A stretch of DNA of 49,122 bases from Nitrospira sp. (GTDB lineage: Bacteria; Nitrospirota; Nitrospiria; Nitrospirales; Nitrospiraceae), in assembly GCA_005116965.1 (NCBI GenBank), contig SWDG01000027.1, positions 135,550-184,671 of the forward strand. The letters are read 5' to 3'. Below are positions 20,333 to 31,885 of the stretch, piece after piece (positions within the stretch are counted from its first letter, which is position 1; the number at the start of each line of letters is the position of its first letter). The notes below the pieces were generated by a model that was not told where the DNA came from, made no database searches, and saw nothing but the letters and a program-made list of their open reading frames with translations. The position numbers were made by a program, and so were the translations under genes.

Positions 20333-21745
20333 TGTAGATAGCAAGTTAAGTTGTCCGGTTTTTGTAGCACATGATCTGTCCGGTATTCGTTCTCCCAGAA
20401 TTTCAGGGGGACACCGAAATTCTTTCGCGCGCAGTTGCCCGAGGAGCGACGATCGGGCGGTTGCGTGACCGCAGGGTCGAGTCCTTCTGGTGTCTGCCCC
20501 CAGCCGTGGAATCACTCAGTTGGCCCTCCGCATTGTAGCGCGCCAAGCACCGCGGGCCATGAAACACCGCCAAGCTCCCATCCGGATACGCATGGACCCG
20601 GACCGTGGCCTTCACATAATGGAACCGGTGCGCATCCGGTGGAATCTGCAAACTCCGGCCTTGATACCGCACCGTATTGTCGTTGGCGACCACCCGCTCC
20701 TCCTGCACACAGAGTATCTCCGCAAGGTTCGTCCCGATCCATGGGACGAAGGCCGTGCCCGGTTCGGCCGCCGCCATCGCAAACCGCTGATTGTAGACAG
20801 GGAGAAACGTGGTGAGCAGATACTGGTTCGCCGCCGCCATGTCCGTAATCCCGGCGAGCGCCAATTCTTTGGGCAACCGATCTTGGAGCGTGCGGAAGGT
20901 GCGCTCCGACCGCCCCCGCGCCTCTGGCGAATAGGCGGGGATCAACGTGATGCCTAACTGCTGCAAGGCCCGATGCACCTGCGTCGGCCGGCTCTTATTC
21001 ACCTTCCCTCCGGCCGCGTCAGTGTACCAGTAGTGCGATCCACGATCCGTATAGAGAGAGCTAAACAGGCCTGTGGTCTCAATGACGTCCCGCAGCCCTC
21101 GGAAGCTGCTCATGGTGCCTTCTTCGTCGACGAAGAAGGCCGAATACAGCTCGCTGGTCGCATCGTCCATGGTCACAATGAGATCCCACTGACAGCCGGG
21201 CACCCACTCATGAGTCGAGCCATCTTGATGCAGCATCATCCCGGGTAACGGTTTGCGCGGTCGCTTCTTGCGATGCGCGCCGCGCCGCGGGGCACGGGGA
21301 ACATGGCCCGCCGCTTGGAGCCGATTCTTGATCCAGGTATAGGACCGCCTCCCGCCATGCTCCGTCTGCCAACGCTCATAGAAGTGTTTCACCGTCCAGC
21401 CGGTATAGCGACTCTCATACAGCGTCACCATCTGCAAGACTTCGTCGACCGGGACCGCGCGGGCCGACGCGTGGCCCAGCCGCCGATCCTGCAAGCCCGC
21501 CGTCCCCTCAGCTTCATAGCGATCACCCCAGCGGCGAAACGTCCGCTCCGTGACGCCCAGCATCTCCGCGGCCTCCGCCATCGTCAGTTCCCGCCGTTGT
21601 CGCCGCTCGTACAGCTCCTCAAATCGCATCTGTCGTACCTCCTGTAGGACGGTTGCCCGTGTCATCGTGGCCCTCCTTCGGAGGACCACCCTAAACCGGA
21701 CACTTCTCGTGCTACAAAAACCGGACAGATGATGTGCTAGCTACA
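20333..21745 (-). mobile_element. Complete insertion sequence, IS1202/ISNCY-like, 24-bp direct repeats
   Basis: About 1.41 kb. Both ends start TGTAG(A/C)TAGC, and both contain TGTCCGGTTTTTGTAGCAC followed by a second TGTCCGGT, forming imperfect inverted ends of about 50 bases with two internal repeat units. One gene, on the minus strand, fills the element. The 24-bp direct repeat is much longer than the 4-15 bp usual for IS481-like elements and fits the long repeats reported for the IS1202 group. A truncated relative starts this window. Confidence 0.85.
20403..21665 (-). CDS. DDE (rve-type) transposase of the IS
   Basis: A 420-residue transposase. The N-terminus has a helix-turn-helix (LTMAEAAEMLGVTERTFRRW) and a second helical DNA-binding segment. 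The integrase-like core follows: first catalytic Asp in MMLHQDGSTHEWVPG, second in LYTDRGSHYW, Glu in AYSPEARGRSERTFRTL. ATG 21665 is used because AAGGAGGG precedes it; an ATG-less extension to 21689 overlaps the terminal repeat. The gene looks intact, so the element may be active. Confidence 0.9.
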   Translation of the reverse strand: MTRATVLQEVRQMRFEELYERRQRRELTMAEAAEMLGVTERTFRRWGDRYEAEGTAGLQDRRLGHASARAVPVDEVLQMVTLYESRYTGWTVKHFYERWQTEHGGRRSYTWIKNRLQAAGHVPRAPRRGAHRKKRPRKPLPGMMLHQDGSTHEWVPGCQWDLIVTMDDATSELYSAFFVDEEGTMSSFRGLRDVIETTGLFSSLYTDRGSHYWYTDAAGGKVNKSRPTQVHRALQQLGITLIPAYSPEARGRSERTFRTLQDRLPKELALAGITDMAAANQYLLTTFLPVYNQRFAMAAAEPGTAFVPWIGTNLAEILCVQEERVVANDNTVRYQGRSLQIPPDAHRFHYVKATVRVHAYPDGSLAVFHGPRCLARYNAEGQLSDSTAGGRHQKDSTLRSRNRPIVAPRATARERISVSP

Positions 21746-21827: not shown

Positions 21828-24137
21828 ATGAGCCACCCCTTAGATTTTGTCACCATTGAAGGACTCCTTGCCTATGGTCGCGCCCTCGCTCGACGAGCGT
21901 CGGAGGGGGGACTTGTCCAACCCACGCTGAGAGAAGCATCCGGCGATGACGCGGATCTTGTCCGTGCGAAGATGGAACAAGTTCGCGCGTTCGTCCAGCG
22001 CTCCAAGGCCGGTTTTGCAACTGCCGAAGCGTACCAGTCAGCACGGGAACGCCTCATCGATGACCCACTAGTATTTTTTGTAGCCTGGAACGCTCTTTTG
22101 GCGGAAGGTTCGCTGCAGCCGCTGCTTCGAGCTACAATCGGGTCGGTGGCCAAACCGACCTATCGGCGCCCGGTCGCCATTGTACCTCGCTCGCAGCTGA
22201 CACCCACGCTGGCGGAAGGCCGGATTGTTCTGGAACTAGGCGACGACCGGTTTTGGTTATTGCCACGGGACCTTGGCGACCGGACGCTGTTCCTCACCAT
22301 GCGTCACGGCGTGTCGCAGGTTGACAGCAAGACCCATCGTGTCGGATGCCGCTTGCCAAACCAATTAGACCGCGAACGAGGCGTTGCCAAAGCCGATGCG
22401 GTAGGGGCAGCGCTCGCCCACATGATCGGCCTCGTGGGACAGCAGCTGGATTTTCTGCATCTCGCGAATTATCTCGATCCGCAAACGTTCCTCCATTGCA
22501 TCAGCCGCAGCCCGAATACCAGGCAACTGTATGAACGGGTGTCTGCGGCGCTGCTCCAAGGTGCGTCCGTCGCCGAACCGATTGCCGAGCCGGCACTTGA
22601 ATCGTCGGATTTCGGCTGGGTCACGGGATTAGAGAAGTCGGTGGAGATCGAAGAAGCCGCGCAGGCGTTCGGCGTGGAGACCGCGACCGCCAAGCGGCTG
22701 ATGAAAGATCCGCTCTATTGTTATCCCGATGGCAATTCATTCTTCGACCTCTATGTCGAGGTCATCGATGGGCTCCACCGGTTGGGCTCTGCGCAGAAGG
22801 GGAGAGTCGCCTGCCTCTATACGCACAGTTCCACCCTGCGAGCCTTAATGATCTATTTGGACCCACGCCCGTTCCATGAAGCGTTCAGTGAGTTCAGCGA
22901 CTACAAGGAAAGCCAAGACAATGTGGTGCTGCTCACAGTCGAACAGGGACGGATGTCCGGCTACTCAACAGCGGTTGGGTTGTCCGAGCGGGAGCGGGTC
23001 GCCCGGAATACCTGGGTAACAGTGGAGGCTGCGAGAAAAGATCGCGTGACACTCAAACCTCGATCCCTCAAGCGGATCGTGGCGCTTGTCTCCGGAGGTG
23101 ATTTTGCCGGCGCCGGCGCCGCGCTCAAAGAATTGCATGTGACAGGCCAACGCATGGGGTTGGAGGTCTATTTTGTTCGGCACGGCTATCTGGGGCTGGC
23201 CAACAATTGGATCGAACGTGTCACCGATGAACATACTCGCGGCATGGGCAGCCATCCCAGCAGTCCCATCGGCAGCAGCCGCTTCGAGGAGTTCAAACAG
23301 GAGACGGTGCAGCAGGTCGCCATGCGCCACCTGGAGCCCTACGTGCGCGATGGTGCACTGATTGTGCTGGGAGGGGACGGCAGCATGCGGGGCGCTCGGG
23401 CCATTTACGAAGAATTCGGTGTGCAGGTGGTTGGCATGCCAGGCAGCATCGACAATAATCTCGAAGGAACCATAGCTCTCGGGTTTCAGTCCGCCGTGAC
23501 GTTGGCGGATCAATCCATCGAATCGCTCAAAGCCACCAGCGCGGCGATGGGCAGTGTGTTTTTCGTGGAGATCATGGGCGCCGGGTCAGGTCATCTCGCG
23601 TTGGCCTGTGCCTATCAGGCGAGAGCCGAAGGGTTGTTGGTCAATGAGCATCCCGACCCAAACACCTATATCGATGAGGTGATTCTCGGCACGCTGAAGC
23701 GGACATTAGGTGTGCCGAACAAGAGCCACCTCTTCGTCGTCGCCGAACGGACGCCGCATCGTCATCATAAGGACGGTGGCGTCCATGGACTGGTGGACTA
23801 TGTGGCCGGAGTGATTGCGCGATGGCCGGAACGACAGCCGCGGCCTGATCACTATCCGCTTACGCCGGCCACCAAAGCCACTATTCTTGGCCACACGCTC
23901 CGGGGTGCCCGGCCAATACCGGAAGACAAAGCGATTGCGCAACATCTTGCCCATGAAGTGGTGCACCGGCTGATCGACTCGCCTGAGGACATTGTCGGGT
24001 GTCTCTTGGCCTACCGTGAACGGGGATCAATCAGCCCGATTCCACTCCACGCGGTTACATCGAAGCAGTTCGACTGGGACGTCTTCAGTCGGATGCATGG
24101 CAACACCCGCGTCTCGAACGGCTCAGTTCCCGTCTGA
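21828..24137 (+). CDS. Fusion: histidine-phosphatase-like domain plus phosphofructokinase
   Basis: A 769-residue two-domain protein. Residues about 150-400 resemble the histidine phosphatase (phosphoglycerate mutase/FBPase-2) superfamily: LFLTMRHGVSQ with Arg159-His160 and a second histidine in CLYTHSSTLRAL (His333). Residues about 415-769 are a 6-phosphofructokinase: VSGGDFAGAGAAL (422-425), IVLGGDGSMRGA (Asp517), GMPGSIDNNLEGT (catalytic Asp542), FVEIMGAGSGHLALA. Gly after GGD and Gly before SID fit ATP rather than pyrophosphate as donor. The usual TIDND reads SIDNN. The order matches neither plain bacterial PFK nor eukaryotic PFK-2/FBPase-2, whose kinase is a different fold. It probably acts in sugar phosphate interconversion. 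ATG 21828 has no strong ribosome site; a TTG lies 4 codons upstream. An IS lies 83 bases upstream. Confidence 0.85.
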   Translation: MSHPLDFVTIEGLLAYGRALARRASEGGLVQPTLREASGDDADLVRAKMEQVRAFVQRSKAGFATAEAYQSARERLIDDPLVFFVAWNALLAEGSLQPLLRATIGSVAKPTYRRPVAIVPRSQLTPTLAEGRIVLELGDDRFWLLPRDLGDRTLFLTMRHGVSQVDSKTHRVGCRLPNQLDRERGVAKADAVGAALAHMIGLVGQQLDFLHLANYLDPQTFLHCISRSPNTRQLYERVSAALLQGASVAEPIAEPALESSDFGWVTGLEKSVEIEEAAQAFGVETATAKRLMKDPLYCYPDGNSFFDLYVEVIDGLHRLGSAQKGRVACLYTHSSTLRALMIYLDPRPFHEAFSEFSDYKESQDNVVLLTVEQGRMSGYSTAVGLSERERVARNTWVTVEAARKDRVTLKPRSLKRIVALVSGGDFAGAGAALKELHVTGQRMGLEVYFVRHGYLGLANNWIERVTDEHTRGMGSHPSSPIGSSRFEEFKQETVQQVAMRHLEPYVRDGALIVLGGDGSMRGARAIYEEFGVQVVGMPGSIDNNLEGTIALGFQSAVTLADQSIESLKATSAAMGSVFFVEIMGAGSGHLALACAYQARAEGLLVNEHPDPNTYIDEVILGTLKRTLGVPNKSHLFVVAERTPHRHHKDGGVHGLVDYVAGVIARWPERQPRPDHYPLTPATKATILGHTLRGARPIPEDKAIAQHLAHEVVHRLIDSPEDIVGCLLAYRERGSISPIPLHAVTSKQFDWDVFSRMHGNTRVSNGSVPV

Positions 24138-29036: not shown

Positions 29037-30452
29037 CTATGACACAGCGGGGTGTGGTGCCGAGATCCCGACTCGCTGCACGATCATCTGCACCGGAACA
29101 TTCGGGCGTAACGTCATGACTGGTTCCGGACGGATCGTCTGCCCGTTCACCAGATGTAAGCGAACTGTGGTGGCGATCGTCGCCAAGATCAACAGTCCTT
29201 CCATCTCCGCAAATGACTCTCCCAAGCATCGCCGTCCACCGGCACCGAACGGGATGTAGGTGAACGCCGGGCGGGTCCGTTGTGCCTCGTCTGAAAAGCG
29301 TTCAGGATCGAATCGGTTTGGATCAGCGAACCACCGTGGATTGCGGTGCAAGTTCCAGGGGCTGATGAAGACCCAGGCTCCTGGTGGAAGGACTGCTCCA
29401 GATGGAAGTCGGTCCTGCGCATGGGCAAGACGGGTGTGAAGCGTCCAGGCCGGAGGGTAGAGGCGCAGCGACTCATCCCAGATCATCTTCATGTAGCGCA
29501 AGCGAGGAAGATCGGCCGCGTTAGGTAGCCGAGCCCCCAAGACTTCGTTCAGTTCTTGAGTCAGTCGTTCTCGAACCGATCCATCTTGCGAGAGAAGAAA
29601 CCACGTCCAGGTCAGCGCGTTGGTGGTGGTTTCATGACCAGCCAGCAAGAAGGTCATGAGTTCATCACGAATTTCTTCATCACTCAGTGGGCGACCTTCT
29701 GTATCGGTCGCGCTCAGTAGAAGAGATAACACGTCATCATGTGGCTCAGCAGCCATCCGTCGCTCGTGAATGAATTGAAACAGCCTCGCTTCGATCATGC
29801 GGAAGCCACGGGTGAACCGACGATGTCGTGGGATGGGAACCCAGAGAGGGGTCACGCTTGCGAGGAGGGAGTCATATTGGAGCTTGATGAGACTTTGACC
29901 GACTGCAATGGCTTCACGAATGGTCTCGCCCTCGGACCGCAGGTCTTGACCAAAGAGAAGGCGCCAGATCACCGACAGGGTGAGGTGGGCCATTTCCTGT
30001 CCGATGTCGATGGTCGTGTCATCCTGCCACAGCGCCACACAGTCGCGAGCCTGGCTCGTGATGAGGTTGGTGTAAGCGGTCACATGATTTCCATGAAAGA
30101 AGGGTAGGAGTACCCGTCGCTGACGGTGATGGATTTCGCCTTCCGTGTGAAGCACGCCCTGACCAAAGATACGCGATTCGACCGGGGGGACGGGCGCCTT
30201 TCGATAATTGTCTTGATTGGTCACGAGTACATGTTTCACATCGGTGGGATGGTTCAGCACATACATGGCGGCGTCACGCTGCCGCAAGAGCAGTTCAACG
30301 ACAAGCCCCATCGGAAGTTTGACCACGTCACCATAGGCCTGACACTGTATGAGAAAGCCAAGCGTGTCGCGGCGAAGGTCGGGGAAACATCCCCACCAAC
30401 GCGAGACCGGTGGGCCGGAAAGGGTGGGTGGTAGTATCGCGTGCTCGATCAT
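29037..30452 (-). CDS. Cytochrome P450
   Basis: About 471 residues from ATG 30452; a frame open to 30548 overlaps the transporter gene and is less likely. All P450 hallmarks are visible: I-helix AGHETT (271-276), ExxR in DESLRLYP, PERF in FDPERFSDEAQ, and the heme-binding loop FGAGGRRCLGESF with Cys409 as axial ligand. It uses oxygen and two electrons to oxidise a small molecule. The close bacterial relatives with a long N-terminus are often fatty-acid or terpenoid hydroxylases, but the substrate is not predictable. No ferredoxin or reductase gene is adjacent. An MFS transporter gene lies 49 bases upstream on the same strand. Confidence 0.92.
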   Translation of the reverse strand: MIEHAILPPTLSGPPVSRWWGCFPDLRRDTLGFLIQCQAYGDVVKLPMGLVVELLLRQRDAAMYVLNHPTDVKHVLVTNQDNYRKAPVPPVESRIFGQGVLHTEGEIHHRQRRVLLPFFHGNHVTAYTNLITSQARDCVALWQDDTTIDIGQEMAHLTLSVIWRLLFGQDLRSEGETIREAIAVGQSLIKLQYDSLLASVTPLWVPIPRHRRFTRGFRMIEARLFQFIHERRMAAEPHDDVLSLLLSATDTEGRPLSDEEIRDELMTFLLAGHETTTNALTWTWFLLSQDGSVRERLTQELNEVLGARLPNAADLPRLRYMKMIWDESLRLYPPAWTLHTRLAHAQDRLPSGAVLPPGAWVFISPWNLHRNPRWFADPNRFDPERFSDEAQRTRPAFTYIPFGAGGRRCLGESFAEMEGLLILATIATTVRLHLVNGQTIRPEPVMTLRPNVPVQMIVQRVGISAPHPAVS

Positions 30453-30501
30453 GCGGTCTACGCATCGCTCATGAAAAATACCGTATATCTGATTGCCACT
30501 G

Positions 30502-31797
30502 TCAATAAGTGCCGGCTGGAACCTCGGCGGTCTCTTTCTTCTCTTCACGAATCGTGGACAGTGCGATCAACGACAGGACGGCGCACAGACTGACATACCA
30601 TCCAGGGGCAAGCGCACTCCCACTCCGTTCCATGATTACCGTAGCCATCAACGGGGCAGTCCCGCCGAACAGAGCCGAGGCAATATTGTACGAAATCGAG
30701 AGGCCTGTGTAGCGGCTTGCGACTGGAAAGAGCGTCGCCACGATGGCAAAGAACGGACCCATATAGGCTGACACGAACACCGTGATCAGGATTTGAGCCA
30801 TGACGATCAATGCGAGCTGGCCGCTGCTCAACCACGAAAAGAACGGAACTGAGCCGAGGGCCAGGCCCGCGGCGCCGATGGCCAGTACCCATCGATGCCC
30901 AACTCGATCGGACAGCTTGCCCATGCACGGAATCAGTATCGCCAACAGCGCCATGCACACTGTGTTGATGAGCAATGCCGTTCCCATCGGGAGGTCGGTC
31001 ACTTTGGTCAGATAGGTGGGTAGAAACACATAGAAGATGTAAAACCCAACGCCATGTACCAGGACGAGACCGATTACTTGTAGGAGTGGCGCACGGTGTG
31101 ATGTAAACAACTCACGGACGGGTGAGGACGACACTACACCCGATTGTTGCAGCCGTTCAAAAGCCGGCGACTCTGGAATGCGCCGTCGAAGATACCAGCC
31201 GACCAACGCGATGACACTTCCCGCCACAAACGGAATGCGCCATCCCCATTCTTGAAGTGCCTCCGATGAGAGGTTCAGCGTCGCCAGGGTCCCGACGCCA
31301 GAGCCTAAGAGCGCGCCGATCTGTGCGCTGAATCCCGCCCAACTGCCGATATAGCCTCGCTCGGTCGGTGCGGCATGTTCAACAAGGAAGGTGACGGACC
31401 CCGTGAATTCTCCACCGACCGAGAGACCCTGAAGAAAGCGCAGCATGGTGAGTATGAGCGGTGCAGCAAGACCGATCTGAGCATAGGTCGGCAACATGCC
31501 GACCAGGCAGGTGGGCAATGCCATTAAAATTATGGACCAAGCCAAGGCCGCTCGTCGGCCCCTGGTATCACCCCAGTGCCCAAACAGCAGCGCACCCAGT
31601 GGTCTGGCCAGAAAGCCGACGGCGAACACACCGAACGTGGCGATTAACGATAACGACGGATCCGACGCAGGGAAAAAGAGACGAGACAAGACCGGCGCGA
31701 AGTATCCAAAGAGGGCAAAATCATACCACTCCAGCACATTCCCGATTGCACCGGCCAAGACCGTTTTCCGTAATACTTTGGGTCCATCTGAATCCAT
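30502..31797 (-). CDS. MFS metabolite:H+ symporter (MHS family)
   Basis: About 431 residues with twelve membrane helices. The hallmark of the MHS group is at the start (GNVLEWYDFALFGYF and LSRLFFP), and loop 2-3 holds GHWGDTRGRR. Members move organic acids, osmolytes or aromatic acids with protons. ATG 31797 follows GAGGG by about 9 bases; a GTG 6 codons upstream is the alternative. Spacing suggests co-transcription with the P450 gene, so the transporter may supply or export a P450 substrate or product. Confidence 0.88.
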   Translation of the reverse strand: MDSDGPKVLRKTVLAGAIGNVLEWYDFALFGYFAPVLSRLFFPASDPSLSLIATFGVFAVGFLARPLGALLFGHWGDTRGRRAALAWSIILMALPTCLVGMLPTYAQIGLAAPLILTMLRFLQGLSVGGEFTGSVTFLVEHAAPTERGYIGSWAGFSAQIGALLGSGVGTLATLNLSSEALQEWGWRIPFVAGSVIALVGWYLRRRIPESPAFERLQQSGVVSSSPVRELFTSHRAPLLQVIGLVLVHGVGFYIFYVFLPTYLTKVTDLPMGTALLINTVCMALLAILIPCMGKLSDRVGHRWVLAIGAAGLALGSVPFFSWLSSGQLALIVMAQILITVFVSAYMGPFFAIVATLFPVASRYTGLSISYNIASALFGGTAPLMATVIMERSGSALAPGWYVSLCAVLSLIALSTIREEKKETAEVPAGTY

Positions 31798-31885
31798 AAG
31801 AATGCACCCTCGCACAACAGTGGCACATTAGCCGCGGTCACCATACCATGAATACCTCAGTCACATGCGAGAGGTGCGTTGTCAT

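Follow-up and report, generated by a model that had tools for sequence, protein, structure and literature searches.

Sugar breakdown is gated by phosphofructokinase (PFK). Nitrospira, which are major oxidisers of nitrite and include complete ammonia oxidisers, both make sugar and burn stored glycogen, and to our knowledge little is understood of how they change from one to the other. Does one gene in a 49,122-nucleotide stretch of a Nitrospira sp. genome (contig SWDG01000027.1, positions 135,550 to 184,671; hereafter the window) encode such a switch? Its product clearly belongs to the PFK superfamily and, by sequence, also to the histidine-phosphatase family, and it is a single candidate for this role. 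If the candidate proves true, it would represent a new regulatory architecture for a textbook enzyme.

An intact fusion confined to the class of Nitrospira

The gene occupies 21828-24137 on the forward strand, from an ATG at 21828 to a stop codon at 24135-24137, and its 769 codons, encoding 769 amino acids, contain no internal stop. An earlier note had described this frame as an RHG/second-His phosphatase-like half joined to a PFK half carrying GGDG and SIDNN, and had proposed profile searches of both; each part of that description was borne out, with both halves scoring above their Pfam cut-offs. About 75 of the 296 sampled Nitrospirota genomes carry the full-length fusion in one open frame at 62-97% identity, all of them within the class of Nitrospira, and the closest relatives are found in Nitrospira MAGs (86-97% identity). 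A genome scan reaching close relatives only returned no matches outside Nitrospira. When 292 Nitrospirota genomes were searched with a profile of the N-terminal half, 73 gave a match, all in the class of Nitrospira and each within a long fused frame, and no unfused version of this half was found. Among the plasmid matches listed, there were only partial ones, to the PFK half, and viral contigs encoded no relative of the N-terminal half.

The earlier note had named two outcomes that would count against the fusion, a first half without a match to histidine phosphatases and a misassembly joining two genes. The first half does match (see below), and we rejected misassembly because the same fused frame recurs across approximately 75 genomes, in some of which it lies intact in a genome assembled as a single contig. 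A seemingly N-terminally truncated copy (locus L025, 5829-7890) proved to be a scaffold gap, where a run of N bridges the copy and an unrelated gene upstream.

Purifying selection acts on all parts of the fused protein, with mean pairwise identities of 62%, 74%, and 81% and dN/dS values of 0.10-0.19, 0.05-0.09, and 0.02-0.05 for residues 1-150, residues 151-400, and the PFK half, respectively. Residues 1-150 (21828-22277, forward strand) are the least conserved large part and matched no Pfam family. The motifs AWN, KP, and IVPR are invariant in the second half of this region, which may therefore be either a portion of the phosphatase-like fold or a separate small domain.

The C-terminal half is a divergent ATP-type member of the PFK superfamily

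The PFK domain spans residues ~414-713 (23067-23966, forward strand) and is recognised by Pfam PF00365 with an E-value of 9.8e-54 (residues 416-713; 183 bits against a cut-off of 30.9; profile positions 1-275 of 277) and by phmmer comparison to E. coli PFK (E 3e-31). It falls short of the curated cut-offs of the NCBIfam models PFKA_ATP (170 bits vs 371) and PRK03202 (176 bits vs 253). To locate conserved and altered residues, we compared 71 fusion relatives with 22 ordinary PFKs, comprising E. coli PFK and 21 from the phylum. The GGDG donor motif (residues 515-518; 23370-23381, forward strand) is invariant and, together with Gly539 at position 124 and the equally invariant PG[ST]IDNN, identifies the domain as ATP-type and not PPi-type. 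The SIDNN motif (residues 540-544; 23445-23459, forward strand) supplies Asp542, the equivalent of the general base Asp127, which is kept in 71/71, while Asn544 takes the place of Asp129. The earlier note read SIDNN as a departure from TIDND close to the catalytic Asp; the final Asn is a real change, present in 71/71 fusions and in none of the 22 ordinary PFKs, but the Ser is trivial, since 33 of the 71 have Thr there and animal PFK itself reads GSIDND.

The residues kept in the fusion (Gly11, Arg72, Asp103, GGDG, Gly124, Asp127, Met169, Glu222, His249, and Arg252) reproduce the ATP-type pattern. Those replaced, in addition to Asp129, are Arg162 (Ser, or Thr/Asn), Arg171 (Ala), and Arg243 (Lys); the first and second correspond to Ser576 and Ala585, which flank the kept Met169 (M583) at 23553-23582, and the third to Lys683, which is followed by the kept His249 (H689) and Arg252 (R692) at 23874-23903, both on the forward strand. 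The 6-phosphate-binding set thus retains His249 and Arg252 and has lost both of its other arginines. Nearly all of the ordinary PFKs compared keep Arg162, Arg243, and Asp129, and the whole fusion clade has lost them. Ordinary bacterial PFK uses Arg162 of the adjacent subunit to bind the phosphate of fructose 6-phosphate in the R state, and this residue turns outward in the T state (PMC12203962). The effector-site residues Arg21, Arg25, Arg54, and Lys213 are likewise replaced in the fusion, with Lys at position 154 and Glu187 kept; in the closest ordinary ATP-PFKs from the class of Nitrospira, Arg21, Arg25, and Lys213 are all kept.

In the phylogenetic analysis all fusions grouped as a single clade (support 100/100), whose stem measures 3.5 changes per column, although their position beside E. 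coli is not secure. By these comparisons the PFK half is an ATP-type lineage of single origin and deep divergence. The length of the stem suggests a changed substrate or role, and the retained catalytic and ATP-binding residues, together with the low dN/dS, argue that this half is not decaying.

The N-terminal half retains an incomplete histidine-phosphatase pocket

Residues ~151-400 (22278-23027, forward strand) contain a His_Phos_1 (PF00300) match at residues 239-351 that lies slightly above the Pfam cut-off (E 1.2e-4), and the same family was found in the N-terminal halves of 31/31 diverse relatives, with a best E-value of 6.8e-8. We also aligned the profile of this half to one built from six canonical histidine phosphatases, three from the source genome together with E. 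coli GpmA, YtjC, and CobC, which gave an E-value of 7e-5, a probability of 62%, and a score of 40, compared to a maximum of 22 in 40 column-shuffled controls and 13 for the reversed profile. The aligned features are collinear (RHG, the SPNT region, the FG...G..K region, PxG.S, and the second His), and profile match and motif order together place the half among the branch 1 histidine phosphatases, such as GpmA, PhoE, and CobC, in which the corresponding elements are RHG, SPxT, (F/Y)GxxxGxxK, PxGxS, and the second His. Compared to these enzymes, it lacks the Glu after RHG, and its spacing from RHG to the SPNT region is longer by approximately 20 residues.

Further differences concern the catalytic pocket. 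The RHG motif (22302-22310, forward strand), with R159 and with H160 at the nucleophile position, is invariant in 71/71 sequences, as is the second His, H333, in YTHSSTLRAL (22824-22826, forward strand). In canonical members the proton donor is the Glu of an LxE motif four residues ahead of Gly, which we take to be E89 in GpmA; this position aligns to Ser259 in the LESSDFGW segment (22596-22619, forward strand) and is Ser in 71/71. Beside it, E258 is present in 66/71 and D261 in 71/71. In the Aquifex enzyme the donor is E82, matching PhoE, and donors are known to differ across the superfamily (PMC12051542). We considered the GNS motif (22731-22739, forward strand), which is GES in most canonical members, as the donor site and rejected it, since canonical members place the donor Glu in LxE before FG; the replacement of its Glu by Asn (46 sequences) or His (25; n=71) is a second difference, separate from Ser259. 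No conserved residue corresponds to the second pocket Arg, which is R58 in the Aquifex enzyme; position 232 is variously R, K, E, T, S, H, or Q. Given the Ser at the donor position, the lack of a conserved second Arg, and the GNS/GHS change, the residues do not make up a standard catalytic pocket, although they leave phosphate binding plausible. Two AlphaFold2 runs that used only relatives 86-98% identical gave a mean pLDDT of 39. The protein as a whole, read from its sequence, is a conserved product of Nitrospira and its relatives in which an incomplete phosphatase-like domain is joined to an unusual PFK.

Genomic context and other sugar enzymes

Comparison of gene positions showed that 29 of 45 carriers, belonging to two families, have a pyruvate kinase gene within ~0.7 kb of the fusion. 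In the fetched loci with both genes called, the pair was divergent in 18, co-directional in two, and convergent in two, indicating that the adjacency has outlived rearrangement, which argues for a working link between the fusion and pyruvate kinase, the enzyme of the other one-way step of glycolysis. In the source genome the pyruvate kinase gene lies outside the window, at C12:473172. The co-occurrence of the two genes (43/45 carriers vs 21/35 non-carriers) was not used as proof, since it is confounded by one reduced genus. In an outer relative (L086), the fusion adjoins genes identified by sequence as glgC-, malQ-, glgB-, and glgX-like.

The fusion is the sole PFKA-family protein in 15 of the 75 carriers; eight of these 15, including genomes in one contig, also have no PfkB-type match over the cut-off, and in a ninth the PfkB-type match is split between contig ends. 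In families beyond the order of Nitrospira, carriers of the fusion have a standard ATP-type PFK as well, which means that the fusion need not be a genome's sole PFK. A second PFK in the source genome (C6:178757-179716, L004) belongs to the same superfamily as the fusion but is PPi-type by motif (GGDD, KTIDND) and has no extra domain; a second PFK is often, though not always, present in other carriers as well. The source genome also has an ordinary GpmA-like mutase. A separate gene for class I fructose bisphosphatase (FBPase) was present in 16/16 genomes checked, source genome included, and we therefore rejected FBPase absence as a reason for the fusion.

Possible functions of the fusion

Our preferred reading, to which we give about an even chance, is that the fusion is an ATP-dependent PFK working in glycolysis under the control of a sensor domain derived from a phosphatase, rather than a two-way enzyme resembling PFK-2/FBPase-2. 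The C-terminal half would phosphorylate fructose 6-phosphate with the gamma-phosphate of ATP, using Asp542 (Asp127) as general base, and would act as a 6-phosphofructokinase in the direction of glycogen and sugar breakdown across the class of Nitrospira. The N-terminal half, a predicted histidine-phosphatase fold whose catalytic pocket is partly gone, would bind a phosphorylated ligand such as a sugar phosphate or a phosphoglycerate, and its sensing would substitute for the control that ordinary bacterial PFKs exert through the effector site and the Arg162 switch. An autotroph whose normal flux runs toward sugar might in this way open glycolysis only on a signal, and the fusion would probably give nitrifiers their own means of turning sugar use on and off. 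The kinase reaction, substrate, direction, and sensing role are inferred. In their favour are the kept Asp127, GGDG, Gly124, His249, Arg252, Glu222, Met169, and Arg72, the low dN/dS, the adjacency to pyruvate kinase, the glg- and malQ-like neighbours in L086, the eight genomes with no other recognised PFK, the replaced effector-site residues, and the phosphatase pocket that keeps R159, H160, and H333 but not the donor Glu or a conserved second Arg. Against this stand the altered 6-phosphate contacts (Arg162 to Ser/Thr/Asn, Arg243 to Lys), the change of Asp129 to Asn, the very long stem, and the standard ATP-type PFK that accompanies the fusion outside the order.

These same losses, found throughout the fusion clade, could instead have re-shaped the sugar pocket of an ATP-dependent kinase for a substrate other than fructose 6-phosphate, which would also agree with the very long stem and with the ordinary ATP-type PFK present alongside in outer families. 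We consider this unlikely given the linkage to pyruvate kinase, the genomes with no other recognised PFK, and the retention of the His249, Arg252, and Glu222 equivalents.

We regard it as slightly less probable still that the protein is bifunctional, with fructose 1,6-bisphosphate or a different bisphosphate formed by the C-terminal half and dephosphorylated by the N-terminal half, so that one chain runs the step both ways. The invariant R159, H160, and H333, the acidic E258 and D261 flanking the missing Glu, and the variation of proton donors across the superfamily (PMC12051542) are compatible with such activity, and the best PDB profile matches of the N-terminal half are to PFKFB bisphosphatase domains, at E-values (0.8-1.3) that are not significant. 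The earlier note had suggested that the protein might interconvert a sugar phosphate and bisphosphate, or that its first half might sense or regulate; the former is weakened by the invariant Ser at the donor position, the unconserved second Arg, and the separate FBPase in every genome checked, and a sensor or regulator appears to be the better reading of the first half. A more specific version, a bacterial PFK/bisphosphatase switch that arose independently of PFK-2/FBPase-2, in which an active N-terminal half using E258 or D261 as its relocated acid and an active ATP-kinase half have their flux direction set by a ligand in autotrophic nitrifiers, strikes us as improbable. Least probable of all is that neither half is catalytic and that the protein, a double pseudo-enzyme, acts as a sensor of sugar phosphates controlling some other protein, possibly the pyruvate kinase encoded next to it: each half does lack some active-site residues of its family and the two genes are adjacent, but neither Asp127 nor the ATP-binding signature varies, and dN/dS in the PFK half is very low.

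Comparison with known enzymes

Like E. coli PfkA (1PFK), the fusion has a ~300-residue PFK domain with GGDG, the general base Asp, and equivalents of His249, Arg252, and Glu222; it differs in its 400-residue N-terminal extension, ~30% identity, replaced effector-site basic residues, and the Asp129 to Asn, Arg162 to Ser, Arg171 to Ala, and Arg243 to Lys substitutions. The earlier note likened the layout to PFK-2/FBPase-2 (PFKFB) in reversed order, and this holds insofar as both carry a phosphofructokinase and a histidine-phosphatase fold on a single chain, the kinase being N-terminal and the phosphatase C-terminal and catalytically complete in PFKFB, in contrast to the reversed order and incomplete pocket seen here. 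Kinship, however, is limited to the phosphatase superfamily: the kinase half of PFK-2/FBPase-2 is an unrelated P-loop fold, and that of the fusion is PF00365 and C-terminal. Yeast PFK also bears a domain from another enzyme family at its N-terminus, a glyoxalase-I-like domain (PMC12203962), but the domain family differs and yeast PFK is a duplicated eukaryotic PFK.

We found no histidine-phosphatase/PFK fusion in the open-access literature, to which our search was limited, so the architecture may already be recorded elsewhere as an unstudied annotation. A 2025 review of the PFK superfamily names the yeast glyoxalase-like fusions and expects new ones; it does not mention a phosphatase-fused PFK, and the words "phosphatase" and "Nitrospir" are absent from its text. 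Nitrospira genomes have been read as lacking PFK (e.g., PMC9239080), and the fusion may bear on such readings.

Two other features of the window were noted by eye. A transposase-like gene (20403-21689, reverse strand), with a helix-turn-helix and an integrase-like core, lies ~140 bases upstream of the fusion and points away from it; none similar was found near the fusion in the compared relatives. Further downstream, a cytochrome P450-like frame (29037-30548, reverse strand) overlaps a major-facilitator-type transporter frame (30502-31815, reverse strand) by ~46 bases.
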